Source: Crambe crambe (taxonomy: Eukaryota; Porifera; Demospongiae; Poecilosclerida; Crambeidae). From it: a DNA stretch of 64,000 nt. A program made the translations under genes and the position numbers. The notes below the pieces were generated by a model. That model saw only the letters and a list, made by a program, of their open reading frames with translations. It was not told the DNA's origin and did not search any database. Location: NCBI GenBank assembly GCA_963924555.1, contig OZ004586.1, positions 6,282,501 through 6,346,500 of the forward strand, read 5' to 3'. Positions 3,328 through 64,000 of this stretch are shown one piece after another (position 1 is the stretch's first letter; each line of letters begins with the position of its first letter).

Positions 3328-4532
3328 TGCAAATTACTTCAAATGATGCCAGTGGGAGAACTGAGAAAATGATTATAAAAATATGTGGATCTCAGGGAAG
3401 TAGTTTTCTTTCCTCTACTGATATCAGTGAGATATCCACTTGTGTCTTCAGAAATGTAAGAGTTACTTTCCTATAGTGATGTTAATAATAATAATGTGAA
3501 CTTTATAGGGACCAATAAAGTATCCTAAATAACAGAGGCTTTTGCATTTTAGCTAACTAGCTATGTAGTTATGTGCATGGCTAATATAATGTGCACAATG
3601 GTTTAGTGACACTGTTTTCCACACATAACTTTCCATCCATAGGACTTAACTGTGATACACAATTTTCAAAACTTCCACTCGTTTTATCTACCTATATCCA
3701 TCACGTCTCCACAAACAGTACTTATTTTCAGGTTAGTGTATACGTAATTGGCAGTGTCAACCCTCTCCTTATAGTAAGCCTCAGTGTGCACATACACAGC
3801 AAAGAGTACCTATGTACCTCATATGTACATTATGTGCACAGTATAATAACTTCTCAAGATCTCCTTGTAGCAGCTAAATCTATCAGCAACATGTAATCAA
3901 TTATGATCTCTTGATTTTTTATATGTGGATTTTCAAATATTAAATGCTTTCTCCAAGAGCTATGATATACTTTTGCTCACCTTGGACTTTTTGAGAGAGA
4001 TCTGTGTAGAAAATAGATAGACCTAGCTAGTATATAGATGGCAAGAGAACGTAAAATGGCAATTAGAGCAGTTAATTTATGGTTCTAGGCACATGATCAA
4101 CAGTAACACATGCAAACATGAGCATAAAGATTTAATTAAATTCACATAATATTATATTGAGGCTTATGCACCCTGTGAGTATGACATTCAATGTTTCCCC
4201 TCATGCATAATCATAATTTTATTATCATGCCTGTCTAAGTTATGTGGCTAATTCCTTCTTCAAATTGCAGCATTGTTGTCAAACGGAGTGTGAAATATCA
4301 AAGCAGTGGCATATTATCTCTCAACAGTGGTCAATACCAGGTCTATAATTATTCTAGATATGAGATAAGCAGGAGGTGCTTGCATCATGAGGATATGAAA
4401 TAGCTACATAGTGTTTAAAAGTAAAGTATTATACTGTAAATATGTTTGAAGTTGCAACTTTTAAACTGCAGGAAAGCAACAACCAACATCATGTGGGTAC
4501 CTACAAAAAAGCAGCAAGGAGAGTAGCACGAG
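3328..4532 (+). CDS. Gene A N-terminal unknown ectodomain (4 exons)
   Basis: Exons 3328-3455, 3643-3731, 4271-4340 and 4472-4532. The first enters in phase 1 and continues from an exon ending ...NQK in the paralogues. Reading across splice phases gives [13 protein letters not shown], then [32 protein letters not shown], and [15 protein letters not shown]. The second exon is also open in another frame, but only the DLTV frame joins the exons on both sides, and it does so in A, B and C. Alternating hydrophobic strands suggest a beta-rich fold. I do not recognise the family. A basic KKAARRVAR stretch precedes the propeller and might be a processing or heparin-like site (inference). Confidence 0.7.
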
Positions 4533-7500
4533 GTAAATTCAGGAGATAATCGTGCAGAAATATGTTTTGCAGTGCCTTTCTATAGTACACTAATATAGCT
4601 ATGATTACTATCAGGTAGTGATTGTTCCTTGGTGTAGAGGTAGTCACTCAATTATAGCTAAGGATACATGCATAAAAAATTAAGTTTCAAACAATTTTAT
4701 TGAAGCATACATGGCATGTAACAATTAATGGCTATTTTGATTAGCATTCTAGCTAAATTTTGGGTCTGTCATATTTAGTACCTTCTTACAGCTGTTCCTG
4801 AGAACAGATACTTTCTAGTAGCTACCGGAAATGCCATCTCAAGAGTTAGTCTTGATGGACTGCGATACCAAGTCCTTGTCAGCAATCTTTCAAATGCAGT
4901 TGCTGTGGATTATGATTATAGGTACGTACGCATTAAAAAATCAATTCAACTGACCACACCTATTGTCAACAGAAGAAATTTCTTCATTGACAGACTTAAA
5001 CTTTAGCTACTCTTTTTTACTTATGGTAGGAATGGCTTCATATTCTGGACAGATACTTCTAGTGGTTTTATTATGAGATCAAATTTAGATGGATCATCTG
5101 TGCTAAGAGTGCTGAGAGGATTAATCAGGCCAGGTTAGTCATGAGATAAGTCAAATCCCTATCTTGCCCAGGTGCATAAGTTTATTAAATTTTTATTAGC
5201 TAGTTATTACTTTTAAAATAATCTTAGTTATAACTGTTGAAAATTTTAGATGGTCTTGCCTTCAATTGGCTGACGAATAGGCTATACTTCACGGATGAAG
5301 TAGCATCTTTTGTGGGTGTTGTCGACTTTGTTGCATTAAATGTCACAATTCTTTTTACGACTGGAGCAAATACACGACCTCGTGCTATAGTTTTGGATCC
5401 ATTTGCTGGGTAACTCAGGGTGTATGTCAGTGTTAAAATATTGATATAATCCTGTTTCATAGTTTAATGTACTTTACTGACTGGGGCAGTGTGGGACGCA
5501 TTGAGAAAGCATCACTGACTGGAGCAAATAGAACTGTCATCCACAACACCAACCTAGTCTGGCCCAATGCCCTCACCCTGGACATTCCAACACAGACTCT
5601 CTACTGGGCAGATGCTAGTCTGGACAAAGTGGAGAAATCTAATGTAGATGGACGAAACAGAATTCTACTGGCTCAGCTAGGAGTTGTTCATCCATTTGGC
5701 ATTGTGTTTGCCAACAATACCCTATATTTCACTGATTGGTCAGACAACACCATCAGATACCTTAGTGCTAGAGGAGGAGTTGTGAGGAGTCTGCACTCTG
5801 TGACTGCATACTCCAACTCAACAATATTTGGAATTCAAATTGTTGGACCCCATGAACAAGTTGCAAGTTAGTAGTCATGAAATTAATCTCTATAGTGCAC
5901 AATCAAAGATCCTAAAGAGTATCCTCACAGTATAACTTTCACTAACTTTGTAGATAATGGTGCTTGTTCATCCAGTCCCTGTGATGCTAATGCTGCTTGT
6001 GCTGATTCTGATGGTTCATTTATCTGTACCTGTAATAGTGGATTCTCAGGAGATGGGTTAACTTGCCAAGGTATTTTAGCTACGTATAGCTACGTAGAAG
6101 TTTACGGAAATAGAACACTCAAGTATGAGGATTGACCTGATCAATGAATGATTATTCCTGTATACATATCCTTTGTGTACACTGTAGCTATAGTTACATA
6201 TAGTATTCATATAGAGTATTATCGACTATTAGCAATATTTGAAGATGAGTACTTTCTTGTTGCCACTCGGTCTTCAATTTCACGAGTTAGCTTGGATGGA
6301 CAACGCTATGAAGTCCTTATCAATAATCTTGTGAATTCTGTTGCAGTGGATTATGATTACAGGTAAGAGCACTATATAGCTAATTATTATGATCACTAGA
6401 AAACGCAATATGGAAGGTTATTTGAACTGAAATAACAACAGAATATTCTGCTGTGCATGTACTACTACATGTGATATGCATATAGCTACGTACTATAACA
6501 TTATCAAATAATAATACTCTTCTGTCATCTTGCCTTCTTATAGAACTGGAGCCATCTTTTGGACATGTACATCTAATGGCCTCATTATGCGATCAAACCT
6601 TAATGGATCAGCAGTTGCAATTATATTGAGAGGATTGATTAGGCCAGGTTAGTGCTAAATTAGCTGAACCTGGTACTATCATATTATGTGCATGCATTTT
6701 TGTATATTTTGTTTAGATGGTCTTGCTTTTGATTGGGTGCACAACTGGCTTTACTTTACCGATGAAGTACTGGACATTGTGGGAGCTGTTGATCCTGTGC
6801 GATCAAATTACACAATACTTATTAGAACTGGAGTCAATACAAAGCCTCGTGCAATAGTGGTGGATCCATTTGCTGGGTAATGAAGTACTTAAATTACACT
6901 TGAATATCTAGGTACAGTTTGTCATCAATGCATGCAAAAACAGTCTAATAAAAATTATTGTGCTCACTTGCCTCAATAATATAGAAAGCGGGTCTCTTGA
7001 TCCCTTCACTGGATGTACAAGCTAATATTAATATTCTTGTCCTGTTAGAATGATATACTTCACTGACTGGGGCAGTGTGGGACGCATTGAGAAGGCATCA
7101 CTGACTGGAGCAAATAGAACTGTCATCCACAATACTGGCCTAGTCTGGCCCAATGCCCTTACCCTGGACATTCCAACACAGACTCTCTACTGGGCAGATG
7201 CTAGTCTGGACAAAGTGGAGAAGTCGAGTGTGGATGGACAGAACAGAGTTATACTGGCTCAGCTAGGAGTTGTCCATCCATTTGGCATGGTGCTTGTCAA
7301 CAACACTCTGTATTTCACTGATTGGTCTGATAGCACTATCAGATATCTTAGTACCAGTGGAGGAGTCGTGAGGAGTCTGCACTCTGTGACAGTATACTCC
7401 AACTCAACGATATTTGGAATTCAAATTGTTGGACCACTTCAGCAGCCACTTCCAGGTAGAGCTACGTTACTTACAATGTAACTTCCTTGAGAATAATCCT

Positions 7501-10500
7501 TTGGCCAAATTCCTTCAGCCACTTCCTGGAAAATATAATCGTCCTGATATAATTGCAAAGCAGCATGCACTAGCGTTTTTCATTACCCCACATATTGGAC
7601 TCATCATAGTCCAATTTGCATTATGATTATAATTATGGCATAATTTATTATTATTGAATTACAGTATGTACACATTATGTATTAACTATTGTTATACTTC
7701 TGTGCAGTTAATGAGTGTGACTCTAATCCATGCCATGTTAATGCGACTTGTTCCAACAACATTGACTCTTTCAACTGCTCCTGCAATGCTGGATACACAG
7801 GAAATGGATTTGTCTGCCAAAGTACAGTCGAGTTAACATTATAAAAAGCAAAATTGCAGGCAAAATTGATTTTTTCATGTTATAGATTTTAATGAGTGTG
7901 CATCGAGTCCTTGTCATGTTAATGCTACATGTACTGACATCATTGGTTCTTATACATGTTCCTGCAACAGTGGATTCAGGGGAAATGGATCTTCTTGTGA
8001 AAGTATGATTGTAATAGCTTAAACTAACATCTGTTCAGGATCACAGTTGATTATTCGGGATAGTAATTGTAGGAAGATTAATTTAGGCTACATAGCCATG
8101 CAGGGGTGTATCCACAGAATTTCAAGTGGCCCGGTGTGCTTGTGTGTGGGATCACCATGCCGCACTCACCCACACCCTTATTAGAAGGAGTTTTGCTATG
8201 TTAATGTGATCATGATTCTTGAAGGTCATGGTATACACATAATCACTTAGCTAACTCTGCAGGCATGGGATAAAATTATAATAATTGGATAATAAAAGTG
8301 GTCCGGTGAAAACTGGACCAACCAGAGTGGTGGATACACCCCTGCCATGGGTGCCAGGTCTGGTCACTCTGCATGCATGGGACTGCTGCTGGTTAGCTAT
8401 ATAGCTGGCTGCTCTCTCTGTGAGTTGGTTCTTGGCTGCTAAATTCTGTTGAATACCATGCATGCACTGTGCTTACATATGCAGCATAAGCACTGTATAT
8501 ATGTATAGCACAAATTATAACCACATGTGCGATGGCCCAGGGGGAGTGACCCTTTCTAACAATGTTTTAACATTTTTGCTATTGGCATTCCTCTAGATAT
8601 CAATGAGTGTGGTTCTGATCCTTGTGACATCAATGCAATGTGTACTGACACTCATGGCTCTCATATCTGCACCTGCAATAATGGATTCACTGGAAATGGA
8701 TTTGCCTGTCAAAGTAAAGCTAAGTGTTTTCTAGCTAAATCCACGATGTTATATGCTTATATGAAATTTGTTTAGATATCAACGAATGTGACTCTAGTCC
8801 TTGTGATGCCAATGCCACATGTACTGACACCATTGGCTCCTATGGTTGTTCTTGTAATAATGGGTTCACAGGAGATGGACTTCGTTGTCATAGTAATTAG
8901 CTGCTCTTAGGACGAGCCAATTACGTACCATATTTTCTTAATTAAATGTATACGTATTAGATATTGATGAGTGCAGATCAAGCCCGTGTGACCTCAATGC
9001 AGTGTGTACTGACACCAATGGGTCCTATACCTGTGCCTGCAATGCTGGATTCACAGGAAATGGATTTCTATGTCAAGGTTGTACTAAACTATTATGATTG
9101 TGCAGTTCAATTCAGTTGGGCATGAGTTCCCTGTATACATAGTACATGGTAATTTGAATGAAAGCTTACATCATATACGTAAGTTTGGAGTCACTGACCA
9201 AAAACTCCAGACCTTATGGCCACTTTCAAAGTTTGCCTGAATTCAGAGTAATCTAAGAGCACTAGTCATTAATTGTCCTTTCATCCCATGAACTTTGTTA
9301 TGCTGTTATTATTATTTTTTTAATATGCAGTCATAGTTCCATTTGAAGACACTTATTTTCTCATTGGTTCACAAACCACTATCACAAGAGTTAGCTTAGA
9401 TGGACAGCGCTACCAAATTCTCGTCAATAATCTTGGGAATGCTGTTGCTATTGATTATGATTACAGGTAATTCATTTCTTGTGCATTAAATGCAGCTGGG
9501 TAAATGAAGCACCAATAGTTATGCATGGGAATGCTTCATTTATGTTAGCTGGTAAAGCCTTTATCATAACAGTACATGCATCTGCCATCAGGTATGCACT
9601 GCTTGTGCATACGCGAGATTTTACAAAATAGGATACGTAGTATCGTTATAATTTACCATCCATGTTATGGCCTGGGCTAGTATGTAATAGAATGGGTCAA
9701 CATCTACATGACTAGAGGCTCCAGAGGCTACCCATACTCACTGTTGTTAGGAATTAATGGCTATTTTACCTAGGAGATATTGAGAAGCATCAGGAGACCG
9801 TCTATATAGCTATGATGTGGCTGAGCCTACCTTTCTGAAAGCCTTTCTGAAATAAAATAAGAGACAGTAGCTATGCTAGAGAATCAAGAGAAGAAAGTAT
9901 CAGCTAGTCCATCGATTATCAGCTAGCTAACTCGTGGTCTATTGATCCTCATTTTTTGTCATCATTCTGCACATCTAGTTAAATAATTCATGCATGCACA
10001 AGCAGTGTATATTAGACCCTATATTTTAATTGGGCCTGGGCATGAGGCTATAAGTTCTAATATTATTCGTAGGAATGGCTTGATATATTGGACTGATAGT
10101 AGTCATGGTTTGATAATGAGATCAAATCTTAATGGGTCATCAGTTGCAACAATATTGAGAGGACTTGTTAGACCAGGTTAGTGCTGTAAATATAGTTAAT
10201 TAACTTCTCTGGATCATTATAAATTATATTGTAGATGGTCTTGCCTTTGACTGGATGGCTAATAAATTGTATGTCACTGATGAGATGTTAGATGTTATCA
10301 GTGTCTTGGATCTTGCTACTTCTAACTACACAGTACTTATTAGAACAGGATTTAATACAAGACCCCGTGCTATAGTGCTGGATCCATATGCTAGGTACAT
10401 TGCAATCAGTTACGTACTCCATAGATTTGAATTGGCTATTCAGGAACTGGTAGCTATAGGATTAATTTTTTTCCTTGAAGGGGGAAATTTTGTGTACGTA

Positions 10501-13500
10501 TGTATGTGGGATTCTGTGAGTTTTCAAGGTAAGGCTCTGGACTTTTGGGCATGCAATGTGTAAACTATAGCCTTATATTTAATTAAAACAGGTGATTTGC
10601 TTTTTGATAGTTTTATGATTGAGTGGGGTGGGGGTGGGGGTGGGTGGGAGAAGTCCCAGGTTTTCACCCCTGCCATTTTGAGATAAGACACTCCATTCTC
10701 TAGGAAAAAAATGGTGTAGCTATAAGATCCCCATGCATGATAATCTACTACTTAGCCACTGGCTGATATGTAGCTACTAAAATTAATGTAGTTGTTAGCT
10801 AACAAATATTCTTGTCCTGCTAGAATGATGTACTTTACTGACTGGGGCAGTGTGGGACGCATTGAGAAGGCATCACTGACTGGAGCAAATAGAACTGTCA
10901 TCCACAACACCAGCCTAGTTTGGCCCAATGCCCTCACACTAGACATTCCAACACAGACTCTCTACTGGGCAGATGCTAGTCTAGACAAAGTGGAGAAGTC
11001 TAATGTGAATGGACAGAACAGAGTTATACTGGCTCAGCTAGGAGTTGTCCATCCATTTAGTATTGTGTTTGTCAACAACACTCTGTATTTCACTGATTGG
11101 TCAGACAACACTATCAGATATCTTAGTGCTAGAGGAGGAGTTGCGAGGAATCTACACTCTGTGACTGCATACTCCAGCTCAACAATATTTGGAATTCAAG
11201 TCATTGGACCATTTCGACAGTTGATAGGTAATCAATGCTTTCTTGGTTTAAAGTCTTGACTAACTGTTGCAGCTATAATTATGTTATTTCTGTGTTCATA
11301 GATGTTGATGAGTGTAATTCTTATCCATGCCATGTCAATGCAACCTGCACCAACACCATTGGTGCTTTCAACTGTTCCTGTAATGCTGGATACAGAGGAG
11401 ATGGAATCAACTGTCAAAGTATATTTTCAGTGCCTATAAGCCTGTATTCAAGCTTGTAAAGAAAATCTTATCTCTTACAGATATCAATGAGTGTAGCTTT
11501 AATCCTTGTCACATCAATGCCACATGCAATGACACCCATGGTTCCTATCTCTGCACTTGTAATGAAGGTTTCAGAGGAGATGGATTCATTTGTCAATGTA
11601 TACTCATAATGCTATAATAGTATTATAGTATTTATACCTTCATCGCTTATTTTACAGACATCAATCAGTGTGTTTCCATGCGTCCTTGTCACATCAATGC
11701 CACATGTACTGATACACTAGGTTCCTTCGTCTGCACATGCAACAGTGGATTCACAGGAGATGGAGTGACTTGTCAAAGTAATGATAGCTATATTTGTTAC
11801 TGATACGTACCTTTTAAAAAGTACTTCTTTCAGATATCAATGAGTGTGCACTGAATCCATGTCACATCAATGCCACATGTACTGACACCCATGGTTCCTT
11901 CATCTGCACATGCAATAATGGATTCACAGGAGATGGATTAACTTGTCAAAGTAAAATTATCTATTGGACATAATTAATTTTGCAGTCTCTGATGATTTAA
12001 TCTTACAGATATCGATGAGTGTGTTTCCATGCGTCCTTGTCACATCAATGCCACATGTACTGATACACTGGGTTCCTTCATCTGCACTTGCAACAATGGA
12101 TTCACAGGAGATGGAGTGACTTGTCGAAGTAAAATTATCTATTGGGCATCATTAATTTTGCAGTCTCTGATGATTTAATCTTACAGATATTGATGAGTGT
12201 GTTTCTATGCGTCCTTGTCACATCAATGCCACATGTACTGATACACTGGGTTCCTTCATCTGCACATGCAACAATGGATTCACAGGAGATGGAGTGACTT
12301 GTCGAAGTAAAATTAATCTATCGGGTATCCAGAGGAGTAGCTACTATTGAGGCAACTGAGGCACTCGCCTCAGTGAAAAATTTAGGAAATTAGTACATGC
12401 TCAATAGAGAGGTTTGTATTGCCAGAGCATTGCTGGCCCTCTTTGTAGCACTTAAGAATTGGCTATGTACATCCCTGTTATAACTTAACTATCACCCCAA
12501 TTTTGCCTCAGTAAAATAAAAAACCTGACTACTCCCCTGGTATCATTAATTTTGCAGTCTCTGATGATTTAATCTTACAGATATTGATGAGTGTGTTTCT
12601 TTGCGTCCTTGTCACATCAATGCCACATGTACTGATACACTGGGTTCCTTCATCTGCACATGCAACAATGGATTCACAGGAGATGGAGTGACTTGTCGAA
12701 GTAAATTATATCAGCATCATTAATAATTTTGCAGTCTCTGATGATTTAATCTTACAGATATCAATGAGTGTGTTTCCATGCGTCCTTGTCATATCAATGC
12801 CACATGTACTGATACACTGGGTTCCTTCATCTGCACATGCAACAATGGATTCACAGGAGATGGATTGACTTGTCTAAGTATGATAAATACACTAAAAACA
12901 GTGTTATGTTCAGTCTATCTATCATCCATGCTGAATTGATGCTATAGGCCAGCTAGATTTCAGGCTATCCCTTTAACCTTTTTATTTATAGAAGAAATGT
13001 CTTGTGCTCACTTGTTGTGATTAGGATTAAAGTACCATAGCTACTACTGCTCGACTGTTTGTTTATACGTAGGCTGAGCCAATGCCAGTTAATACCAAGG
13101 ATATTATAGCCTAGAATTACATAGTAGGCTTGTCTTGCCCTTGTGCTCTATATCTTTGGGCTTCAGGTAATCCTCATACATAGGCATGCTTCAAGACCGT
13201 ATAGGAAGCAAAATTAAAGTGGGGTGTGGTTAGGGATGAGGTTAAGACCTTTGAGCAGCTTTGTGACTATCGTGACTACTTTTCCAGTCTGGTCCAGACA
13301 AAGCTATTTAGCATCATGGAGGGAAAAGACGAATTCAAATTACAATTCATGCTGTTGTCCTGGCCAAAAAAAGTGATGAGGCCATGGAATCAGTGGCCAC
13401 TGTGCTTCCCACAGCCCTGTGCTTTAACTAAGGCTGCTGCATATTAAACTAGATATAGAACCCCTGTGACACAAATGCCATGTGTACTGATACCAGTGGG

Positions 13501-16500
13501 TCCTATACCTGTGCTACAATAATGGATTCACTGGAATCCATTATTCCCATTCCCATTATTACTGGGATTAAAGTATTCTCTATTTATATTGTCCATGCAG
13601 ACATCAATGAGTGTTACTCCATGGATCCTTGCAATGACAATGCCACATGTACTGATACACTGGGTTCCTTCATCTGCACATGCAACAATGGATTTACAGG
13701 AGATGGATTGACTTGTCAAAGTAATGTTATCCGTGTGTTACTTATACGTATACTTAAAAATTAACTATCTTTCAGATATCAATGAGTGTGACTCCATGCG
13801 TCCTTGTCACATCAATGCCACATGTACTGATACACTGGGTTCCTTCATCTGCACATGCAATAATGGATTCACAGGAGATGGAGTGACTTGTCAAAGTAAT
13901 AATATCTGTGTTACTTATACGTATCTTTAAAAAAAAACTATCTTTCAGATATCAATGAGTGTGCACTGAATCCTTGTGACAGCAATGCTATGTGTATTGA
14001 CACACATGGCTCTCACATCTGCACATGCAGCAATGGATTCACAGGAGATGGAGTGACTTGTCGAAGTAAAATTATCTATTGGGCATCATTAATTTTGCAG
14101 TCTCTGATGATTTAATCTTACAGATATCGATGAGTGTGTTTCCATGCATCCTTGTCACATCAATGCCACATGTACTGATACACTGGGTTCCTTCATCTGC
14201 ACATGCAACAATGGATTCACAGGAGATGGATTGACTTGTCTAAGTATGATAAATACACTAAAAACAGTGTTATGTTCAGTCTATCTATCATCCATGCTGA
14301 ATTTATGCTATAGGCCAGCTAGATTTTGGGCTATCCCTTTAACCTTTTTATTTATAGAAGAAATGTTTTGTGCTCACTCGTTGTGGTTAGGATCAAAGTA
14401 CCATAGCTACTACTGCTCGACTGTTTGTTTATACGTAGGCTGAGCCAATGCCAGTTAATACCAAGGATATTATAGCCTAGAATTACATAGTAGGCTTGTC
14501 TTGCCCTTGTGCTCTATATCTTTGGGCTTCAGGTAATCCTCATACATAGGCATGCTTCAAGACCGTATAGGAAGCAAAATTAAAGTGGGGTGTGGTTAGG
14601 GATGAGGTTAAGACCTTTGAGCACCTTTGTGACTATCGTGACTACTTTTCCAGTCTGGTCCAGACAAAGCTATTTAGCATCATGGAGGGAAAAGACGAAT
14701 TCAAATTACAATTCATGCTGTTGTCCTGGCCAAAAAAAGTGATGAGGCCATGGAATCAGTGGCCACTGTGCTTCCCACAGCCCTGTGCTTTAACTAAGGC
14801 TGCTGCATATTAAACTAGATATAGAACCCCTGTGACACAAATGCCATGTGTACTGATACCAGTGGGTCCTATACCTGTGCTACAATAATGGATTCACTGG
14901 AATCCATTATTCCCATTCCCATTATTACTGGGATTAAAGTATTCTCTATTTATATTGTCCATGCAGACATCAATGAGTGTTACTCCATGGATCCTTGCAA
15001 TGACAATGCCACATGTACTGATACACTGGGTTCCTTCATCTGCACATGCAACAATGGATTTACAGGAGATGGATTGACTTGTCAAAGTAATGTTATCCGT
15101 GTGTTACTTATACGTATACTTAAAAATTAACTATCTTTCAGATATCAATGAGTGTGACTCCATGCGTCCTTGTCACATCAATGCCACATGTACTGATACA
15201 CTGGGTTCCTTCATCTGCACATGCAACAATGGATTCACAGGAGATGGAGTGACTTGTCAAAGTAATAATATCTGTGTTACTTATACGTATTTTTAAAAAT
15301 AACTATCTTTCAGATATCAATGAATGTGCACTGAATCCTTGTGACAGCAATGCTATGTGTATTGACACACATGGCTCTCACATCTGCACATGCAGCAATG
15401 GATTCACAGGAGATGGAGTGACTTGTCAAAGTATATTATCCATTGGCATCATTTGCAGTCTCTAATGAATTAATCTTACAGATATCAATGAGTGCAGTTT
15501 GAATCCTTGTCACACCAATGCTATGTGTACTGACACCAATGGTTCCTTCATCTGCATGTGCAATAATGGGTTTACAGGAGATGGATTGACTTGTCAAAGT
15601 ATATTATCCATTATGCATTGGCATTATTTATAACCTCTAATGATTTCAGATATCAATGAGTGCGATTTTGATCCTTGTCACGTCAGTGCCACATGTACTG
15701 ACACCCATGGTTCCTATATCTGCACATGTGATAATGGGTTCACTGGAGATGGATTAACTTGTCAAAGTAAATATATAGTTAGTATCCATTGGCATTATTT
15801 GCAGTCTCTTATGATTTACCAATTATTAATCTTACAGATATTGTTGAGTGTACTTCTGATCTTTGTCATATCAATGCCGTGTGTATTGACACTCATGGTT
15901 CGTACACTTGTTCCTGCAATGCTGGATTCACAGGAAATGGATTGATTTGTGAAAGTAATACTATTATTTTAGTTATATGTATATAACTCTGTCAGATCTT
16001 CAATTTTGTTGTAGACATCAATGAGTGTGACTCCATGCATCCTTGCAATGGCAATGCCACATGTACTGACACACTGGGTTCCTACATCTGCACATGTAAC
16101 AATGGAAACACAGGAGATGGAGTGACTTGTCAAAGTAATAGCTTATCTTTGTTACTGACATCCTTTAAAAAGTACATCTTTCAGATATCAACGAGTGTGC
16201 ACTAAATCCTTGTGACATCAATGCTATGTGTACTGACACACATGGCTCACACATCTGCACATGCAATGATGGATTCACTGGAGATGGATTAACTTGTCAA
16301 AGTATATCGCACTTTCTGATTCAATCTTACAGATATCAGTTTTGATCCTTAATTGTCACATTTACCCGGAACAAGCTTTCAATTACTGATGGCCTTAATG
16401 CCACACATGTACTGCAGTGGCAGAGATACTGGGGGGAGGAGGGGGGGCAATGGGCTAGCCCCCTTCCCCCCAGCTCCTTAAGACACTGCATGGTGCTATC

Positions 16501-36976: not shown

Positions 36977-37082
36977 GTATGATTGTAATAGCTTAAACTA
37001 ACATCTGTTCAGGATCACAGTTGATTATTCGAGATAGTAATTATAGGAAGATTGGCTAATAAATTTAGGCCACATAGCCATG

Positions 37083-39729: not shown

Positions 39730-39777
39730 GTAATGCTTCTAGCTAAATCCATGATGTTAATGCTTGTATGAGTTTAG

Positions 39778-40158: not shown

Positions 40159-40215
40159 GTATGGTTGGCATTTGGCAATAATATCACAGTGCATTTTTTT
40201 GCTCCAAATTTCCAG

Positions 40216-40332
40216 ATATCAATGAATGTGATTTGAAATCTTGTCACAGCAGTGCACAGTGTATTGACACTGATGGATCTTATGTCTGCACATGTGAAGA
40301 AGGGTTGATAAAGAATGGCATCGAATGTGAAA
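40216..40332 (+). CDS. Gene B EGF E62
   Basis: 117-base phase 1-1 exon, NINECDLKSCHSSAQCIDTD, six cysteines, close to E62 of A. Confidence 0.7.
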
Positions 40333-40505: not shown

Positions 40506-40798
40506 GTAGGGAACTTCAAAGTAACTTGGCACTTGTGACTACCATCTCTTCAGTGTCTGTGGTGGCAATAGTGGTTGTCATCCTGGTGGCTCTATGTGTG
40601 ATCCTTGTGGTTGCATGCTTGGTAGTCAGGAATCGCAGAAAAGGAGTGTTCGTTCCTAATAATAATAACACCTTTCAAAATCAGTTGAATTTTGATGGGC
40701 TAATGATGAAGAATGATGCATATATAGTGGAAGAACCACTTTATGAAGAAATTAGGCCAATAGAAGAACAATATGAAGAAATACAACCATTACCCTGA
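40506..40798 (+). CDS. Gene B last exon: TM helix and ITAM-like tail
   Basis: RELQSNLALV, then the same TM helix and RNRRKG as in A. The NPLY of A is NQLN here. The end reads EEPLYEEIRPIEEQYEEI: two YEEI sites separated by six residues, with Glu three before the first Tyr, matching the ITAM formula (D/E)-x-x-Y-x-x-I-x6-Y-x-x-I. TGA at 40796-40798. Fully open although the gene upstream is broken. Confidence 0.85.
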
Positions 40799-45081: not shown

Positions 45082-45403
45082 ATGATGGAAGTGAAATTGC
45101 TTCTTACCTTGTTTATGCTGTCAACACCAACATTTTCAGTTAAATATGGTGATAGCAGATCAGATCAAGATAGCTTCTTGAAGGGAGACTGTTCTATTCA
45201 AAGTTGCATGAATGGCACAGTGGCTACAGCACTCGATGAAAGTACCTCAACTGTTCTAACTTTTGTTACAAGGTCTGAATATGATGCTGCTACAGCAAGT
45301 TTTGTTTTGAAGTTTGAGCATGAACATGAAAACTCTGCCTTGAAACAAATACTTTCTTTTGATATAAAACTGTTGAGTATGGATGAAGGAGCTAATCAGA
45401 AAT
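45082..45403 (+). CDS. Gene C exon 1: signal peptide
   Basis: 322 bases, MMEVKLLLTLFMLSTPTFSV then KYGDSRSDQDSFLKGDCSIQ; donor GTACGT, phase 1 end. Aligns without gaps with exon 1 of B and D. Confidence 0.85.
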
Positions 45404-51400: not shown

Positions 51401-54400
51401 GGATTCAAGACCATGCACTAGAAGCTGCACACGAATTAACCCTCATGATTCTATTTGTCCAGACCTCATCCACCTTTATAACCACCATGTAAACCACCCG
51501 GTCACTCTTGCTTATTCCTCCTTAGTTTGGTCATACGTAGATCTAGCTATTGCCTGCTATCGCACTCTAGCTCTGCCCCTTCATTCGGCCCATGCATGCA
51601 TGCACATTATATAGGTACTCTCCATTTTCACAAGGTCGACTAGAAGAAGGCAAGCACACTCATGCTTATAGTTTATACAATGGTCATCATTTTTTTGAGT
51701 AAACTGCATGCTATTTTTATTGCAAGATCTTAAGACTGGACAGCAGACCCAAACAAGGGAAAAATAGTGTAGACTGTATAGTCATAGCATTCATTTTGCC
51801 TCACAGACCTGCATGATGTCATTTTCTCTGTAGAGCATTAATTCTTGTGTGTTATTATACACATGCAAAAACAATGTTCCAACCACCTAGTCAGCATTGG
51901 GCACACCCATAATTGTCCAAAAATGATGCAATAATAATTATGTCACAAAATATAGCTAAGTAGCTACCGTATGGGTAGATATTTTCGAGGGATTAAAATT
52001 TCGTGAATACCAGTACCAAGCAGATTTAAAAAATTTCGAGGATTTTAATTTCGCTTCGCGTGCGTTGCAATATATCGCGTGCGCGCAGTACAGTGCACAC
52101 GTGGCGATCGTGAGCAGCTGGAACGATGACCAGTTTTAGTTACCCTTCAATGGTTAGTAGATTTTACATTTATAGAGAAATTTGGGAAGTTTCAGAACTT
52201 CTTTGACCGTTTCAGCTGGTACAGAAGACGATAGTGGCAACTTGAAATACTTGTAGAGAGCCATCTGAGGTCGAGTACTCCGTAATGACTAATGCGCATG
52301 CGCTAAATATCTAGGCTATTTATATTATATATCGAGTAAAAATTCCGTGAAATCATAAGTGACCGCGAAAACCACGAAATTAAAATCCCTCGAAAATATC
52401 TACCCATACGGTATACAGAAACTATACGTACGTAGCCATGATGGTATCAGAATTTCAAAAAAAAACAAAAAAAAACAACAACAAAAAAACAAGAGTTTTG
52501 CCAGATTCTTTCCTTCACAAGGTGTGCTGCCTTGTATGTAACTGGTCTGGGTAGGGAGGCATAAGAATAAATTTATCCACTAACAGTGTTGACACTTGAT
52601 TGTGTGTTTTAGCAATTATGCTGCCCATGCATACTACTGTATATAGCGAGCTACTAGCTACGAATATGGCGTTGCATGCCCACTCTCTCTTCATGGTTGA
52701 TACACACTTACATGGTTAATGCTTCTCAGAGGGTCTGTTATTTAAGAGAGGTCCACTGAAGTCATGTGACTCAAACACTGTGCTGAGGCACCAGACTTAA
52801 CTTGTTCATTCACTATTACAGTGCAAATTACTTCAAATGATGCCAGTGGGAGAACTGAGAAAATGATAATAAAAATATGTGGATCTCAGGGAAGCAGTTT
52901 TCTTTCCTCAACTAATATCAGTGAGATATCCACATGTGTCTTCAGAAATGTAAGATTTACTTTTCCTATGATGTTTAGCTATAGCTACGTAGTTAGAATA
53001 AGTGAACTTTATTGGGACCAACAAAGTGTGTATCCTGAATTACAGAGGTTTTATATTTCTAGCTAGCTAGCTCTAATAATAATTTGAATTACAAGGCTTT
53101 GCATTTCAACGGGCTTTCTAGCTAGCTAGCTAGAAAGCCTGTTGAAATGCAACATGATGTTACACAATGGATTAGTGCATGACACTGTTTTCCACACAAC
53201 TTTCCATCCATATTATAGGACTTAACTGTGATATACAAATTTCAAAACTTCCGTTCGTTTTATCTACCTATATCCATCACGTCTCCACGAACAGTACTTA
53301 TTTTCAGGTACGTAAGTGCATAATTGGCAGTGCCAATCATCAAGCCTCAGTATGGTGAAGAAATGGTTTACTGAGTATGTACGTCATACATATACGCACA
53401 CACATAATCACTTTTCAAGATCTCCTCGTACTGTCTCTTTGTTACAGCAAGCAAATAATCATGATTCATTATGCATAAGTATATTTATTTTCATATGCCT
53501 GTCTAAGTTATGCATACAGTTTCTTTTGATTGCAGCATTGTTGTCCAACGGAGTGTGAAATATCAAAGCAGTGGCATATCATCACTTATCAGTGATCAAT
53601 ACCAGGTCTATAATTATTCTTACTAGATACGTATGAGATCAGCAGGTGTTCACACCATGAGAATATAAAAATACATAGCTATATACGTATATAGTAAAGC
53701 ATACTGTAAATCTGTTTGAAGTTGCAATTTTTTAACTGCAGGAAAGCAACAACCAACTTCATGTGGGCACCTACAAGAAAGCAGCAAGGAGAGTAGCACG
53801 AGGTAAATACAGGAGATAATTGTGCAGAAATATGTTATTACATAGTTCCTTTTTATGGTACACTATTAGCTATAACTATGATTACTATCAGGTAGCAATT
53901 GTTGGTGTAGAGGTATTATAGCTAATAAAAAATTAAGTTTGAACGGTTTTATCAAAGCATGCAAAGCAATAATTCTATTTTGAATATAAAATTCTAGCTA
54001 TTTGGGTCTGTCAGATTTGGTACCTTCTTACAGCTGTTCCTGAGAACAGATACTTTCTGGTAGCTACCGGAAATACCATCTCAAGAGTTAGTCTTGATGG
54101 ACTGCGATACCAAGTCCTTGTCAGCAATCTTTCAGGTGCAGTTGCAGTGGATTATGATTATAGGTATGCATCAAATAATTAATCCAACTGACCACACCTA
54201 TTATCAACAGAAGAAATTTTTTCATTGACAGACTCAAACTTAAGCTACTCTTTTTTTACATTATGGTAGGAATGGCTTCATATTCTGGACAGATATATAT
54301 AATATTTCTAGTGGTTTTATTATGAGATCGAACTTAGATGGATCATCTGTGCTAAGATTGCCACTAAGATTATTCAGGCCAGGTTAGCCATGAGATAAGT

Positions 54401-57400
54401 CAAAACCCTATTTTACCCAGATGCATAAGTTTCAGCTATAACTTGAAATTTTAGATGGTCTTGCCTTCAATTGGCTGACGAATAGGCTATACTTCACAGA
54501 TGCACTAGCATCTATTGTGGGTGTGGTCGACTTTGTTACATTGAATGCCATTATTCTTTTCACAACTGGAGCAAATACACGACCTCGTGCTATAGTTTTG
54601 GATCCATTTGCTGGGTAACTCAGGATGTATGTCAGTGTTAAAATATTGATATAATCCTGTTTCATAGTTTGATGTACTTTACTGACTGGGGCCGTGTGGG
54701 ACGCATCGAGAAAGCATCACTGACTGGAGCAAATAGAACTGTCATCCACAACACCAGCCTAGTCTGGCCCAATGCCCTCACCCTGGACATTCCAACACAG
54801 ACACTCTACTGGGCAGATGCTAGTCTGGACAAATTGGAGAAATCAAGTGTGGATGGACGAAACAGAGTTCTACTGGCTCAGCTAGGAATTGTCCATCCAT
54901 TTGGCATTGTGTTTGCCAACAATACCCTGTATTTCACTGATGGATCAGACAACACCATCAGATACGTTAGTGCCAATGGAGGAGTTGTGAGGAGTCTGCA
55001 CTCTGTGACTGCATACTCCAGGAGGACCAACTCAACGATATTTGGAATTCAAATTGTTGGACCCCTTGAACAAGTTGCAAGTTAGTAGTCATGAAATTGA
55101 GTTGTAATTTCTATAGTGCACAATCAAGGATCCTACAGAGTATGCTCATAGTAACTTTCACTACTTTGTAGATAATGGGATGATAATTCCTGTGACACCT
55201 AGCTACATATCGGAATCCTTTGTGTACACTGTAGCTATGTAGTATTAATATAGAGTGTATATTTTGCAATGCCGTTGGTCCTTGGTGTAGAGGTATTATA
55301 GCTAAGAATACATGCATAAAAAATTAAGTTTCGAACAAAGCATGCATGGCATATGTAAAATATAACATTCTAGCTATTTGGCTATTAGGGTCTGTCAGAT
55401 TTGGTACCTTCTTACAGCTGTTCCTGAGAACAGATACTTTCTGGTAGCTACCGGAAATGCCATCTCAAGAGTTAGTCTTGATGGACTGCGATACCAAGTC
55501 CTTGTCAGCAATCTTTCAAAGGCAGTTGCTGTGGATTATGATTATAGGTACACATCAAATAATTAATCCTAGGCAAGCAACTGACCGCACCTATTATCAA
55601 CAGAAGAAATTTCTTCATTGACAGATTTGAACTTTAGCTACTCTTTTTTACTTATGGTAGGAATGGCTTTATATTCTGGACGGATACTTCTAGTGGTTCT
55701 ATAATGAGATCAAATTTAGATGGATCATCTGTGCTAAGAGTGCTAAGAGGATTAATCGGACCAGGTTAGTCATGAGATAAGTCAGATCCCTATCTTGCCC
55801 AGATGCATAAGTTTATTTTATACAGAGAATGCATAGTGATATCCTAAACCACATTGCATGATTTCCCCATACAGTATAAAATAATCTAACTATCGAAAAT
55901 TTTAGATGGCCTTGCCTTCAATTGGCTGACAAATAGGCTATACTTCACAGATCAAGTAGCATCTTTTGTGGGTGTGCTTGACTTTGTTGCATTAAATGTC
56001 ACAATTCTTTTTACGACTGGAGCAAATACACGACCTCGTGCTATAGTTTTGGATCCATTTGCTGGGTAACTCAGGATGTATGTCAGTGTTAAAATATTGA
56101 TATAATCCTGCTTCATAGTTTAATGTACTTTACTGACTGGGGCCGTGTGGGACGCATCGAGAAAGCATCACTGACTGGAGCAAATCGGACTGTCATCCAC
56201 AACACCAGCCTAGTCTGGCCCAATGCCCTCACCCTGGATATTCCAACACAGACACTCTACTGGGCAGATGCTAATCTGGACAAAGTGGAGAAGTCTAATG
56301 TGGATGGACGAAACAGAGTTCTACTGGCTCAGCTAGGAGTTGTCCATCCATTTGGCATTGTGTTAGCCAACAATACCCTGTATTTCACTGATAGGTCAGA
56401 CAACACCATCAGATACCTTAGTACCAGTGGAGGAGTTGTGAGGAGTCTGCACTCTGTGACTGCATACTCCAGGAGGACCAACTCAACGATATTTGGAATT
56501 CAAATTGTTGGACCCAATGAACAAGTTACAAGTTAGTAGTCATGAGTTGTAATCTCTATAGTGTACAACCAAGGATCCTAAAGAGTATGCTCACAGTAAC
56601 TTTCACTACTTTGTGCATTTGTTCATCCAGTCCCTGTAATGCTAATGCTTCTTGTACTGATTCTGATAATTTTATCTGTACCTGTAATAGCGGATTCTCA
56701 GGAGATGGGTTAACTTGCCAAGGTATTTTAGCTATAGGAGGTGATGGGAAAAGGACACTCATAACATATGATAATTTTACCTGATCAATGAATAATTCTA
56801 TGACACCTACATATCCTTTATGTACACTGTAGCTATAATATCCATATAGATATATTCGATCAAATCCAACTGAAATTATAATTTGCCATGCTGTTGAAGT
56901 GCACCTTCAATGAGAAACAAGATTTAGCTTTGAAGTGCAGTTCTACTGACTTTATGATTACTATTTTCATTTTGTTGTTTCGTTTTGTTTGGCATTTCTT
57001 AAAACAGAATTAGCATCCAAAGAGCCATAGTAGTGGAATGCAGAATCTGCTCAAGCACACTAAACACTTTGATTAATTTGTTCTCACTTATATCATCCAG
57101 ACATCAATGAGTGCGATTTCATGCATCCTTGCAATGGCAATGCCACATGTACTGATACACTGGGTTCCTTCATTTGCACATGCAACAATGGATTCACAGG
57201 AGATGGAGTGACTTGTCAAAGTAAACACATTCTTGCTTCTTGTTGTGACTAATTTTTTATCTTTCCAATTTGGGCAGATATTAATGAGTGTGAAATCATG
57301 AGTCCTTGTAGCATCAATGCTGTGTGTATTGACACTCATGGTTCATACATTTGTTCCTGCAATGCTGGATATAGAGAAAATGGATTCACTTGTGAAAGTA

Positions 57401-57904
57401 ATACTATTCATAGTGTAACTCTGATCAGAAGTCAGATCTTTAATTTTGTTGCAGACATTAATGAGTGTGACTCCATGCATCCTTGCAGTGGCAATGCCAA
57501 TTGTACTGATACACTGGGTTCCTTCATTTGTACATGCAACAATGGATTCACAGGAGATGGAGTGACCTGTCAAAGTACGTATTTACTTTCAGTTACATTG
57601 TTATTCTTTCAGATATTAATCCAATCCTCGTCACATCAATGCTGCATGTAGTGACACCATGCAGTGACTACTGAAATTATAGCATTCAGTTGATAGCTCT
57701 ATAATTTTTTTCCTAAAGCAAACCAAAAACAACAACAACAACAACAACAATAACAACAACAAAAAATAAACGTATTTTTTTCTCTGTGTAGGTAGGGAAC
57801 TTCAAAGTAACTCAGCATTCGTAACTACCATCTCTCCAGTGTCTGTATTGGCAATAGTTGTTGTCATCATGGCTCTATGTGAAGAAATGAAGCCATTACC
57901 CTGA
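45082..57904 (+). CDS. Receptor gene C: short open paralogue with truncated TM and no tail
   Basis: Exons: 45082-45403; 52822-52949; 53219-53307; 53536-53605; 53742-53802; propeller P1a 54034-54163, 54270-54382, 54455-54614, 54668-55080; propeller P1b 55418-55547, 55661-55764, 55906-56065, 56119-56531; EGFs 56597-56722, 57101-57220, 57278-57397, 57455-57574; last exon 57792-57904. All junction phases match and I found no stop before the TGA at 57902-57904. Domain order: signal peptide, novel N-terminal module, two propellers, four EGFs, a 17-residue hydrophobic segment, EEMKPLP. Compared with A it lacks P2, P3, about 58 EGFs and the tyrosine tail. Could be a weakly anchored or secreted decoy-like form (inference). 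Confidence 0.78.
45525..45553 (+). repeat. Uninterrupted run of 29 G
   Basis: Follows gagtctc, 122 bases after the exon 1 donor of gene C. Gene B has no G-run at this place; gene D has a longer interrupted one. Confidence 0.9.
46135..46176. repeat. AAC microsatellite
   Basis: About 13 imperfect aac units in intron 1 of gene C. Confidence 0.9.
46270..47900 (-). pseudogene. Decayed intronless multicopy ORF in gene C intron 1
   Basis: Read on the minus strand, pieces in order: TKQVRRGMKVYKVQLGSRYI, TDTGQQVLRSAESARLA, DVVPVRTVETRDTILALCQE, EVTRFLEENDDEQITFQDLI, MQQRLKEHFGNKIIQTEI, PLQIGLGVQLHHHYASRFLI, FVQYVADN, TLDGNDTVHGMGMIA and HPGKSSV. They lie in several frames with stops. From memory, this order resembles a multicopy uncharacterised protein family in invertebrate genomes, probably spread by a mobile element; not verified. 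Insertion lies between sequences contiguous in intron 1 of B. Confidence 0.6.
48246..48314. repeat. 69-bp near-palindrome hairpin
   Basis: Left arm aataatccctaaatcactg..accaagc, right arm gcttggt..cagtgatgtagggattatt, with few mismatches and a four-base loop. Degenerate copy in intron 1 of B at about 28165-28215. Probably a foldback MITE; a miRNA-like precursor is a weaker alternative. Confidence 0.7.
49538..49607. repeat. 35-bp direct tandem duplication
   Basis: Two exact copies of a 35-base unit beginning gatggccctatatcttgc, in intron 1 of gene C. Confidence 0.9.
49917..49956. repeat. TCA/TTC trinucleotide repeat
   Basis: atc repeats passing into ttc repeats. Confidence 0.85.
50884..51020. 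mobile_element. Partial relative of the 12330 MITE
   Basis: Begins cagaggagtagctaccatta and continues with ggcaactggggcacttgccc, like 12330-12380 with several changes. The right end is not clear. Confidence 0.5.
51965..52413. mobile_element. 449-bp MITE with 41-bp terminal inverted repeats
   Basis: Left end taccgtatgggtagatattt, right end aaatatctacccatacggta, continuing as near-perfect inverted repeats to ttcgtg / cacgaa. The interior is richer in CpG than its surroundings. No ORF. Confidence 0.85.
52822..53802 (+). CDS. Gene C N-terminal module exons
   Basis: Exons 52822-52949, 53219-53307, 53536-53605, 53742-53802, phases 1-0-2-0-1. [61 protein letters not shown]. Same design as A. Confidence 0.72.
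53101..53150. repeat. 50-bp palindrome in a gene C intron
   Basis: gcatttcaacgggctttcta followed by gctagctagc and the complement ending gttgaaatgc; one mismatch. In gene B the two arms are about 45 bases apart (32216-32313). Confidence 0.8.
54034..55080 (+). CDS. Gene C propeller P1a
   Basis: Exons 54034-54163, 54270-54382 (nine extra bases after the TD of FWTD, giving TDIYNISSG), 54455-54614, 54668-55080. Six blade strands present; the last is YFTDGSD instead of YFTDWSD. Ends VAS in phase 1. The EGF that follows this propeller in A and B is deleted: its acceptor and first bases (ataatggg) remain at about 55172 and then unrelated sequence starts. Confidence 0.82.
55418..56531 (+). CDS. Gene C propeller P1b, a duplicate of P1-type propeller
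   Basis: Exons 55418-55547, 55661-55764, 55906-56065, 56119-56531. Closer to P1 of A and B than to P2, and even the intron before it (from about 55265) matches the intron before P1. The upstream exon ends in A and this one starts CT, so direct splicing gives Thr-Val-Pro-Glu-Asn in frame. Last blade YFTDRSD. Confidence 0.82.
56597..56722 (+). CDS. Gene C EGF E1 with shifted acceptor
   Basis: The normal acceptor (ctttgtag) is lost. The nearest upstream AG in tcacag (56591-56596) gives an open phase 1-1 exon: TFTTLCICSSSPCNANASC, then [20 protein letters not shown]. One Ser/Gly codon is missing between Cys3 and Cys4. Acceptor choice is inferred from frame alone. Confidence 0.5.
57101..57574 (+). 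CDS. Gene C cbEGFs (counterparts of E53, E56, E57)
   Basis: Exons 57101-57220 ([17 protein letters not shown]), 57278-57397 ([17 protein letters not shown]), 57455-57574 ([17 protein letters not shown]). All 120 bases, phase 1-1, six cysteines. Intron sequence between them also follows A (23880-24111), which fixes the orthology. Confidence 0.8.
57613..57665 (+). pseudogene. Stump of EGF E58 in gene C
   Basis: After a tttcag acceptor the text starts like E58 but has lost the Glu-Cys part and stops after the Cys3 region, where it joins sequence (atgcagtgacta) that in A lies after E62. A deletion from inside E58 to beyond E62 explains it. Confidence 0.7.
57722..57770. repeat. AAC-rich microsatellite before gene C last exon
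   Basis: Imperfect aac repeats. The same intron in A (25220-25260) and B (40405-40435) has shorter A-rich tracts. Confidence 0.85.
57792..57904 (+). CDS. Gene C last exon: shortened hydrophobic segment, tail deleted
   Basis: RELQSNSAFVTT, then ISPVSVLAIVVVIMALC and directly EEMKPLP, stop. Compared with A an in-frame deletion joins ...ALC to the second YEEM site (losing its Tyr), removing half the helix, the RNRRKG stop-transfer, NPLY and YEEI. A short tatg shared by both sides may mark the junction. Confidence 0.8.
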
Positions 57905-60120: not shown

Positions 60121-60132
60121 TGTCAGTTAGCC

Positions 60133-61241: not shown

Positions 61242-61528
61242 GTTAGCCTCGTCCCCAGGCTCTATTGAAATAGACAGGTCTCAAAAGAGTGCCTGGGGCC
61301 AGGCCGTCATCTGGCGACCCTTGGATTGGTACAGGGGTACCGCTAGCAGATTTCGCGCGCCGCCCACGAGCATCCGCGCTGCAGTACAGTACACCGTATG
61401 CACATCCTGGGCTGCTATAACCCCTTACAATTGTGGGTAATTTCCTTGATACATCCCATTCCCATTGGTGACTAGGTATTTATGGCAGAGGTGGGATAAA
61501 CACTTCCACTGATTCTAATCCTTGGTGA
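61242..61528 (+). promoter_or_regulatory. Upstream region of gene D
   Basis: Matches the GC-rich and proximal blocks of gene C, with inverted CCAAT (cccattggtg, 61461-61470) and tatttatgg (61477-61485). A 1.1-kb element at 60133-61241 has been inserted at its upstream edge, separating it from the minus-strand gene. Confidence 0.5.
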
Positions 61529-61850
61529 ATGATGGAAGTGAAATTGCTTCTTACCTTGTTTATGCTGTCAACACCAACATTTTCAGTTAACTATGGTGAT
61601 AGCAGATCAGATCAAGATAGCTTCTTGAAGGGAGACTGTTCTATTCAAAGTTGCATGAATGGCACAGTGGCTGCAGCACTTGATGAAAGTAGTTCAACTG
61701 TTCTAACTTTTGTTGCAAGGTCTGAATATGATGCTTCTACAGCAAGTTTTGTTTTGAAGCTTGAGCACGAATATGAAAACTCTGCCTTGAAACAAATACT
61801 TTCTTTTGATGTAAAACTGTTGAGTATGGATGAAGGAGCTAATCAGAAAT
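61529..61850 (+). CDS. Receptor gene D, exon 1 only (gene continues past window)
   Basis: 322 bases, ATG ATG to a GT donor, phase 1 end. MMEVKLLLTLFMLSTPTFSV signal peptide, NYGDSRSDQDSFLKGDCSIQ, ending DEGANQK. Ungapped with exon 1 of B and C. The rest of the gene should follow beyond 64000; in C the next exon is 7.4 kb downstream. Confidence 0.82.
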
Positions 61851-61972
61851 GTAGGTTAAACGTCGTAGCTATTAGGTAACTAGCTATGCGTAGTGTTATA
61901 CTTGTGTATTTCCTGTAACATAAAAGGCTGGACACATTGAACATGTTGTAAAGGAGTCTCCATTGAATCCTT

Positions 61973-62038
61973 GGGGGGGGGGGGTGGGGGTGGGGGGGGT
62001 GGGGGGGTGGGGGGGGGGGGGGAGGGAGGGAGGAGGAA
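61973..62038 (+). repeat. G-rich tract in gene D intron 1
   Basis: About 65 bases, almost all G with single T or A, so many possible quadruplex registers. Same position as the 29-G run in gene C. Confidence 0.9.
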
Positions 62039-62379
62039 GAACTGCAATCATTAATTTTTTTAAAACTAAATAGTCGTTCCACACACAAATGCAGTTGCAG
62101 AATGGGTAGCCAACCCTGGCACCTCTCTTATAGCTGCTATATAGCCATATGTTATATAAGCATTCCATGTTATCTAAGTGAAGTGTGTACTAAAGAGGTA
62201 ACCTTCCTCCTCTTCATACGTACAATATTTGCAATAATTATACGGGCTCATTTTGCACACCTATTGACCAATCAGATTTGGAATTAGCTATATAGTCCAG
62301 TCATTTCAACCAAAATTAGGGAATAAATTGCAACATAATTGCTCTCAAGTGTTTCTGGTGCAGGAAAATAGCTATCAAG

Positions 62380-64000
62380 GAATCCCAGGGGTGTCTGCCA
62401 TGATGTACAAGTTGCATGCATCATTCCAGACCATTGATCCAAACATGACTGAAAGGACATCTAGATGGGCTGTAGGATCCTTAATTAGCCCTGAAGCTGT
62501 GCAATTTTTCATGTCACCATAGTCATACCAAGATTTTCCTCTCTCTGTGGAATTGGACTTGGTGTAACTTTCACTCTGAGATTTGGATTGCTTTCTTGAT
62601 CTCAGGGGTTGTGGCAGCTATCATGCCCATGCCATGGACAGTATCATTTCCATCCAGAGTTTGATGTTGATTGTCTGGAATATATTGGACAAACTGTGAT
62701 GAGTAGCTAGGAATGTCAGTTCTATAACTCAGTACGGCATTTTGTTCAAACTGGTGTACTTCATTGTAGCTATGAGCAGCAGAAACTGCAACATGTCAAT
62801 CAAAAACCATGAAGCATAATGGTGATGGAGCTGCACACCCAAACCAATCTGAAGTGGTCTTGGCCGAGCTGCCTGCATTAGCTATGGCCTATCAAATTTA
62901 GGCAATTTTTGTCTGTACATCTTTTCCAATGAACATGCAGATATCTGTAAGCAGTACTCTCAAAGATGTAGGCAAATAGTTGATTGACTCTTCAGACCCC
63001 AGGCTATACCAGGATAGTAGCAGTGAGATGTTTTCACTATTTTAATGTCAACTTAGCAGCAGTTTAAATTTATCTTTTCAGGATCAAGATCACACTGACT
63101 ATAAAAGTCATACAGCACTTCCCTAGCCTTATTTCTAAAAGTAACATTCATTAATCTTATTTCTGTCTGGATAATCTTGTTTCCAAAATATTCCTTGAAT
63201 CTTTGCTGCATAATAATGTGGATTGCTATAAGCACTGTGTTCCGTATTGGCCAAATTTTCCTCCATATACATTGAATTAGATCCTGAATCTGCATGCATC
63301 ATTCTCTTCCAGAAATCTGGTAACCTCAAAGAATGCATTTGTCCTTTGTTTCTCTGGTGGTCGACTTACATTTACTTTTTCAATGAGCTAGCTATCTTTG
63401 TGGTCGTGAGTTGCGGGTATCTGCTCTTCATGGCATGGAAATTGGCACTGCACACTCTATGATATACTGCATCTGCAGCATGCACATCATGAATATGTAA
63501 AATTCTTGCCCAATCGTCTCCCCCTTCTTGACATAATGCCAAAATTGTGTCTCTTATTTCAGCTATCCTGACAGGAACAACATCTGAAGCTTTCTCTTTT
63601 CTGAATGTTGCTGGTTCGCCACAATAAAAAAGTTAGTGTTAACATTAAGTTGCCTTTCTGCTGACCTGAGGAGTATCTGTAGCTACACCTTGTTGGACAG
63701 TTTGTTTTAAGACCCATGGCACAATACCTATGGCGACATTCCTGATGTACCTGCTGCCCAGCTGTACAAAATAAACTTTCATTCCTCTCCTTACTTGCTT
63801 TGTTGATGCTTGCACTTCCTTTTCCCCTAGGGTGGCTTTTGGTGATGCTCCTATTAGCTCCTTGCAGATAACATACTCATGATCTTCATTGCAGCAAAGC
63901 ATGGCAGGGGTCAAAGGAGCACATGGATTTTTGCTGACTCATAGCAAGCAAGGCACATGGATTTTTGCATGAAAAATGCCAGCTAGCTAAAGCTGTAAGA
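62380..64000 (-). pseudogene. Same decayed ORF in gene D intron 1 (runs off window)
   Basis: Parallel to 46270-47990, with separate damage. Best stretches: STKQVRRGMKVYFVQLGSRY, MQQRFKEYFGNKIIQTEIRL, NVTFRNKAREVLYDFYSQ, PLQI-region and TLDGNDTVHGMGMIA. Where the two copies differ, either may keep the better frame. Same position relative to exon 1 shows that it duplicated with the receptor gene. Confidence 0.6.

Follow-up and report, generated by a model that had tools for sequence, protein, structure and literature searches.

The 64-kb stretch of Crambe crambe DNA presented above (hereafter the window) lies within a tandem cluster of six genes, here named Z and A to E, which appear to form a single, structurally labile family of type I single-pass surface receptors. 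The predicted order of parts is a signal peptide, a new N-terminal module with a furin-like exit, two or three LRP-type YWTD propellers, a stalk of EGF modules, a transmembrane segment and a tyrosine-bearing tail. At the level of sequence, the architecture, the exon phases, the relations among the copies and the hybrid nature of gene D are established. The shared exon plan, the differing stalks and tails, and the hybrid copy suggest a recognition family that is still being reshuffled. Regarding function, it is tentatively proposed that A serves in engulfment or endocytosis and that C to E are its short, tail-poor partners.

The receptor cluster and its shared exon plan

The region analysed covered 254 kb of contig C9 (110 kb upstream, the window, and 80 kb downstream), and coordinates are those of the window, negative values lying upstream. 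The genome searched comprised 143 Mb in 119 contigs. Of seven Peptidase_C1 candidates retrieved from it, four carry the active-site pattern and are cathepsin-L-like; one of these (L051) resembles silicatein but retains the catalytic cysteine. Exon 1 (108 residues) gave six matches genome-wide at E ≤ 10 (six candidates, all six scored), all located on the + strand of this one cluster, where they span approximately 170 kb and begin at -88922 (Z), -3117 (A), 27393 (B), 45082 (C), 61529 (D), and 80941 (E). A query of exons 2-5 matched the same cluster and, elsewhere, only three weak matches were obtained (E 0.04, 0.11, and 0.59). The four paralogues reported in a preliminary description of the window are A to D, and the cluster extends beyond it to Z and E. 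The shared exon phases and domain plan claimed there were recovered in splice-site-consistent models of all six copies, with an identical phase for each exon type. In the final models every acceptor is AG and every donor GT, except for the donor of the truncated exon in B. It should be noted that exon boundaries were selected to fit, the evidence being the existence of a fitting set in each copy. Phase-consistent open models were obtained for A, C, D, and E. Z, which ends after two propellers, and B are damaged, so that two of the six copies are broken or partial.

The module counts given previously were reproduced. Model A (3,558 residues) contains three propellers and 62 EGF exons, 61 of which keep all six cysteines; C and D (963 residues each) contain two propellers and four EGFs. 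Model E has 1,000 residues and lies wholly outside the window. D starts at the edge, as had been described, and is completed beyond it. B is indeed broken, by a stop codon and a truncated exon. C and D are unlikely to be assembly duplicates of a single gene, since their heads are 8.3% apart and the intergenic copies carry different insertions; Z and A, with about 98-98.6% identity over 11 kb, could be assembly duplicates. A repeated mobile element contributes several long reading frames at -77185..-21206 and 141655-144000, outside the window, the majority falling in the Z-A gap; these presumably encode a PIF1-like helicase, and we take the element to be Helitron-like. Within the window, no Rfam match reached the gathering threshold. 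Among titles and abstract openings, with few subscription journals covered, no description of this receptor family was found.

Gene D as a hybrid of two neighbours

By its pattern of matches, D is a recent hybrid of an E-type head and a C-type body joined in intron 1. Informative sites, defined as ungapped positions that distinguish C from E and at which D agrees with either, were counted in 250-base bins. In bins 61400-64399, 186 sites are E-like and 20 C-like, while from bin 64650 on, 362 are C-like and 15 E-like. Two bins are mixed, the one at 64400 (4 C, 6 E) and, upstream of the E-like stretch, the one at 61150 (20 C, 12 E). Mismatch counts, excluding 61150-61384 and 64401-64799, display the same switch. 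For the head, D differs from E at 62 of 2962 positions (2.09%) and from C at 221 of 2667 (8.29%); for the body, it differs from C at 41 of 9674 (0.42%) and from E at 369 of 6023 (6.13%). E is without most of the aligned intron 1 (~64810-67600), and that stretch is therefore little informative on E. Moreover, most of the sequence between C and D recurs between D and E, with 97.3, 99.1, 97.9, 93.5, and 96.6% identity in five pieces. The C-D stretch alone contains a repeat at 60133-61241 and, separately, approximately 175 unique bases, while the D-E stretch alone contains a long terminal repeat (LTR) element at ~75463-79868 and approximately 200 unique bases. A single unequal exchange in intron 1 between a C-type and an E-type gene predicts the order of head, body, and intergenic stretches observed here.

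The LTR-type retroelement between D and E (75463-79868) lies outside the window. Its two ends are 98.7% identical, which implies recent insertion, and its long reading frame at 75691-79626 (-) is presumably gag-pol-like.

Modules, tails and selection in the copies

The features are as follows, window position 3328 being the first base of exon 2 of gene A.

-3117..-2796 (+): A, exon 1, 3.1 kb upstream of the window
3328-3455, 3643-3731, 4271-4340, 4472-4532 (+): A, N-terminal module exons 2-5, from cross-copy conservation, phases 1-0, 0-2, 2-0, 0-1
4792-4921, 5030-5133, 5250-5409, 5463-5866 (+): A, exons of YWTD propeller 1 (Pfam and PDB matches run on the E homologue)
5954..6070 (+): A, EGF between propellers 1 and 2
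6233-6362, 6544-6647, 6717-6876, 7049-7455 (+): A, exons of propeller 2
7708..9077 (+): A, five EGF exons between propellers 2 and 3
9331-9466, 10073-10176, 10235-10394, 10824-11227 (+): A, exons of propeller 3
11302..25120 (+): A, array of 56 EGF exons, phase 1-1
25317..25612 (+): A, transmembrane segment and tail (NPLY, YEEI, YEEM)
27393..33209 (+): B, N-terminal module exons 1-5
33479..36116 (+): B, two propellers and one EGF; exon 33942-34101 interrupted by a stop codon, exon at 35755 truncated
36858..40332 (+): B, two EGF exons with the full set of cysteines (39613-39729, 40216-40332) and four EGF remnants
40506..40798 (+): B, transmembrane segment and tail with the canonical spacing YEEI-x6-YEEI of an immunoreceptor tyrosine-based activation motif (ITAM)
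45082..53802 (+): C, N-terminal module exons 1-5
54034..56531 (+): C, two propellers, no EGF found between them
56597..57574 (+): C, four EGF exons
57792..57904 (+): C, transmembrane exon shortened by an in-frame deletion, no tail tyrosines, end EEMKPLP
61529..61850 (+): D, exon 1, E-type head
61385..64000 (+): D, E-like segment within the window; the switch to C-like lies just outside, at ~64400-64800 in intron 1

The N-terminal module consists of five exons and closes at a furin-like site, RVAR, kept in all six copies. Since this site follows the module in every copy, exon 1 may belong to a cleaved pro-piece. The module had been described as matching no recognised family, and this was borne out: it stayed below every Pfam cut-off (15.4 bits at best, where 27.1 is required), and its best PDB match (E 0.021) was not significant. 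That match was to glycoside hydrolase family 7, which ranked first in each search of the module, scored 14.3 bits in Pfam, below the cut-off of 27, and was rejected as an assignment; the weak similarity covers module residues 37-130 (exons 1-2), sub-threshold in both databases. A search with N-terminal module residues 1-240 of E, taken as part of the whole protein, considered 1,912 candidates, and not one reached E ≤ 1. The predicted structure of exon 1 alone was poor (mean pLDDT, the predicted local distance difference test, 46.6). Relatives of exon 1 were also found on two short public contigs.

Regarding the propellers, Pfam matches to model E above cut-off are Ldl_recept_b, several EGF families, and the propeller-type DUF5050 and SGL, and its propellers match PDB structures of LRP2, LRP4, LRP6, LDLR, LRP8, VLDLR, and nidogen. 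The large propeller exon has 40 matches genome-wide at E ≤ 0.001, 13 of them in the cluster, one on contig C8 at 64% identity, and 26 at 31-58%. The C8 gene (L048, C8:6258500-6264500), whose EGF we take to be LRP-type, shares its propeller exon plan with the cluster and is a possible source of the cluster's propellers. Between the propellers of A, synonymous divergence (dS) is 0.24-0.31 in the last propeller exon and 0.76-2.6 in the other three, which suggests that this exon was homogenised by gene conversion.

In the 254 kb, a cysteine-pattern scan found 77 EGFs on the + strand and none on the - strand. A profile scan added eight EGF exons or remnants (three in A, four in B, one in C) to these 77, for a total of 85. 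Every EGF exon is symmetric, of phase 1-1, and all 62 EGF exon lengths in A are divisible by three, so that the stalk can lengthen or shorten in frame. The array of A carries a self-match of 1.68 kb at a 1.37-kb offset (12572-14247 with 13940-15602, 95%); in the segment 16966-19515 it repeats with a period of ~348 bp, or two EGFs (91%). The EGF exon at 22570-22689 has lost one cysteine, and two further remnants are located at 13457 and 14823. An open frame of 80 residues, possibly a mobile-element fragment, is present in both halves of the tandem block (13205-13444 and 14571-14810). With the cysteine-complete EGFs of A numbered A1-A61, the three EGFs of B match A1, A4, and A61 at 96.6-97.4%, and those of C and E match A1 (91.6%), A55 (C3 98.3%, E3 99.2%), and A56 (92.5-95.8%). 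These matches, together with the remnants, indicate that a longer array lost modules to give the short stalks, at least in part, and that A expanded in its middle. By sequence pattern, a calcium site ([DN]x[DN][EQ]C) is present in 56 of the 62 EGFs of A and an Asx-hydroxylation site in 49; possible O-fucose sites, by pattern only, are found in 39.

The tails differ stepwise. That of A contains NPLY (in the context I-x-NPLY), DAYV, QYEEI, and QYEEM, with the spacing YEEI-x7-YEEM; its second motif ends in M, so that A misses a strict ITAM. B has DAYI, LYEEI, and QYEEI, forming a strict ITAM, and has lost NPxY, which is confined to A among the five genes with a tail exon. A single tyrosine is left in E. 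In C and D there are none, and the in-frame deletion, which also shortens the membrane segment, retains the last residues EEMKPLP.

Selection was assessed from the ratio of nonsynonymous to synonymous rates (dN/dS). In propeller 1 it is 0.28-0.41 in all 13 pairs with countable changes (p 0.0002-0.014 against neutrality), indicating purifying selection, although the pairs are not independent, C and D being identical there so that D pairs duplicate C pairs. The remaining two of the 15 pairs, Z-A and C-D, have 0-1 changes and were left out; C versus E gives 0.37 (p 0.014). For exons 2-5, the eight pairs that set Z or A against one of B-E have ratios of 0.23-0.29, and those for B-C, B-D, B-E, C-E, and D-E are 0.41-1.24. 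For exon 1, it is 0.26-2.13 over 15 pairs, none differing significantly from neutral (p ≥ 0.285). The rate of exon 1 relative to propeller 1, by uncorrected Fisher tests, gives p 0.015 for A-B, 0.055-0.144 in nine of the 15 pairs, and 0.45-1 in five.

Readings of function and known systems

Under the reading tentatively favoured here, A would bind particles or ligands through its propellers, its N-terminal module, or both, at the top of a very long stiff stalk. NPxY and the paired YEEI/YEEM would then drive Src/Syk-type signalling and uptake, as in MEGF10 and Draper, while the short-stalked copies C, D, and E, whose tails are stripped, would serve as adhesion or decoy partners. The phase 1-1 exons would permit changes in stalk length without loss of frame, and unequal exchange in introns would move heads onto other bodies. 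According to one report, the tails of MEGF10 and Draper combine NPxY with an ITAM, read by Src- and Syk-type kinases (PMC8092387). The genome carries SH2 and kinase exons (by position only, the best 150 of 166 and 121 of 1944 candidates being scored), with at least three SH2-kinase sets on C15 among the matches listed. Also among these, again by position only, SH2, partial SH2, and kinase exons lie on one strand in Syk-like order at C14:6544512-6551018. An uptake or engagement receptor is favoured because the tail of A resembles those of MEGF10 and Draper and such exons occur in fitting order.

Several observations weigh against this account. The YEEI-x7-YEEM of A is not a strict ITAM, and the sole strict one sits in the broken gene B; Z and B are dead or partial; and C, D, and E may have lost their tails through decay and not for a function: between C and E, the second propeller is without detectable constraint (15 nonsynonymous and 6 synonymous changes, p 0.62). 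Furthermore, the head of D is further from its donor E (2.1%) than its body is from C (0.42%), which fits a single exchange only if the donor was a divergent E allele; such an allele would explain the gap.

An ordinary LRP-like endocytic, nutrient, or lipoprotein receptor, or a pro-EGF-like adhesion protein, duplicated and with neutral differences among copies, is less likely, though a serious competitor. The LRP-type propellers, the propeller exon plan shared with the C8 gene, the purifying selection on propeller 1, and the two damaged copies agree with it; the unique N-terminal module, the unusual 56-EGF stalk of A, and the lack of LDLa modules in model E (none at E ≤ 0.1, E being the model scanned whole by Pfam) do not.

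A polymorphic allorecognition or microbe-recognition locus, in which heads vary among copies and individuals and set specificity, is considered rather unlikely. It would account for the tandem cluster, the hybrid head of D, the tendency of exon 1 to change faster than propeller 1, and a variant exon 1 found on another public contig. The latter is protein cluster P0001 (five members, from one contig of 3,825,105 bases), differing from the six copies by 5, 5, 5, 7, 8, and 16 of 107 residues. P0003 (corresponding to B exon 1), P0006 (B tail), and P0007 (an E-like tail with one substitution) also come from contigs of 3,825,105 bases, and these four would belong to one contig representing another haplotype; P0002 (corresponding to C exon 1) sits on a 49,740-base public contig. 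In Botryllus, most genotype-specific splicing reportedly alters the stretch between membrane and head, and signalling through ITAM or its inhibitory counterpart (immunoreceptor tyrosine-based inhibitory motif, ITIM) is discussed (PMC12065747), which is in line with such a locus. However, exon 1 departs significantly from neutrality in no pair, the allelic difference observed is modest, the closest copies differing at 5 of 107 residues, and model E has no Ig, Sushi, or SRCR match. Of the rapidly changing recognition family initially proposed, the tandem and labile character stands; the exon 1 ratios do not demonstrate positive selection, and an immune or allorecognition use is putative. A variant of comparably low probability is an early-animal recognition locus whose head, reach, and signalling vary independently: intron-1 exchange would swap heads, phase-neutral exons would resize stalks, and short tail-poor paralogues would compete with the long, signalling A and its engulfment-type motifs. 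Finally, a matrix or cell-cell adhesion protein with a fibrillin-like, calcium-stiffened rod, suggested by the calcium-site and Asx-hydroxylation patterns, is improbable given the transmembrane exon and tyrosine tail conserved in A and B.

With the LDL-receptor family (LRP2, LRP4, LRP5/6) it shares YWTD propellers (Ldl_recept_b) beside EGFs, as seen in model E, a single-pass anchor, and the NPxY of A; it differs in its calcium-type EGFs in a long phase 1-1 array, its five-exon N-terminal module, and tandem tail loss. The domain plan of C to E presumably resembles that of pro-EGF. MEGF10/Draper/CED-1 are alike in an EGF-rich stalk, a single pass, and NPxY with paired YxxI/M (A) or an ITAM (B), but the cluster has propellers and calcium-type EGFs, lacks these motifs in four of six copies (Z, C, D, E), and displays no EMI match in model E or its N-terminal module. 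Notch and the fibrillins have very long calcium-binding EGF arrays, as does A, in which possible O-fucose sites also occur; unlike them, the cluster has propellers and a short tail, and model E showed none of the remaining modules of Notch or the fibrillins. Rearrangement within a tandem multigene family, as in invertebrate allorecognition and immune clusters, was found here. Botryllus fester/FcoR and FuHC, Hydractinia Alr, and the sponge SRCR/NLR sets are likewise tandem and labile, with stalk variation and some tyrosine-motif tails; the present cluster differs in having only six copies and, in model E, no Ig, Sushi, SRCR, or NACHT match. New here are the hybrid D, the symmetric phase 1-1 stalk exons, the stepwise tail differences, and an alternative exon 1 on a public contig. 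If this account is correct, one sponge receptor locus joins LRP-type propellers with MEGF10/Draper-type tail motifs, the origin of a hybrid receptor can be read at the single-base level, and a concrete, testable candidate is provided for the discrimination of particles, microbes, and other individuals in early animals.

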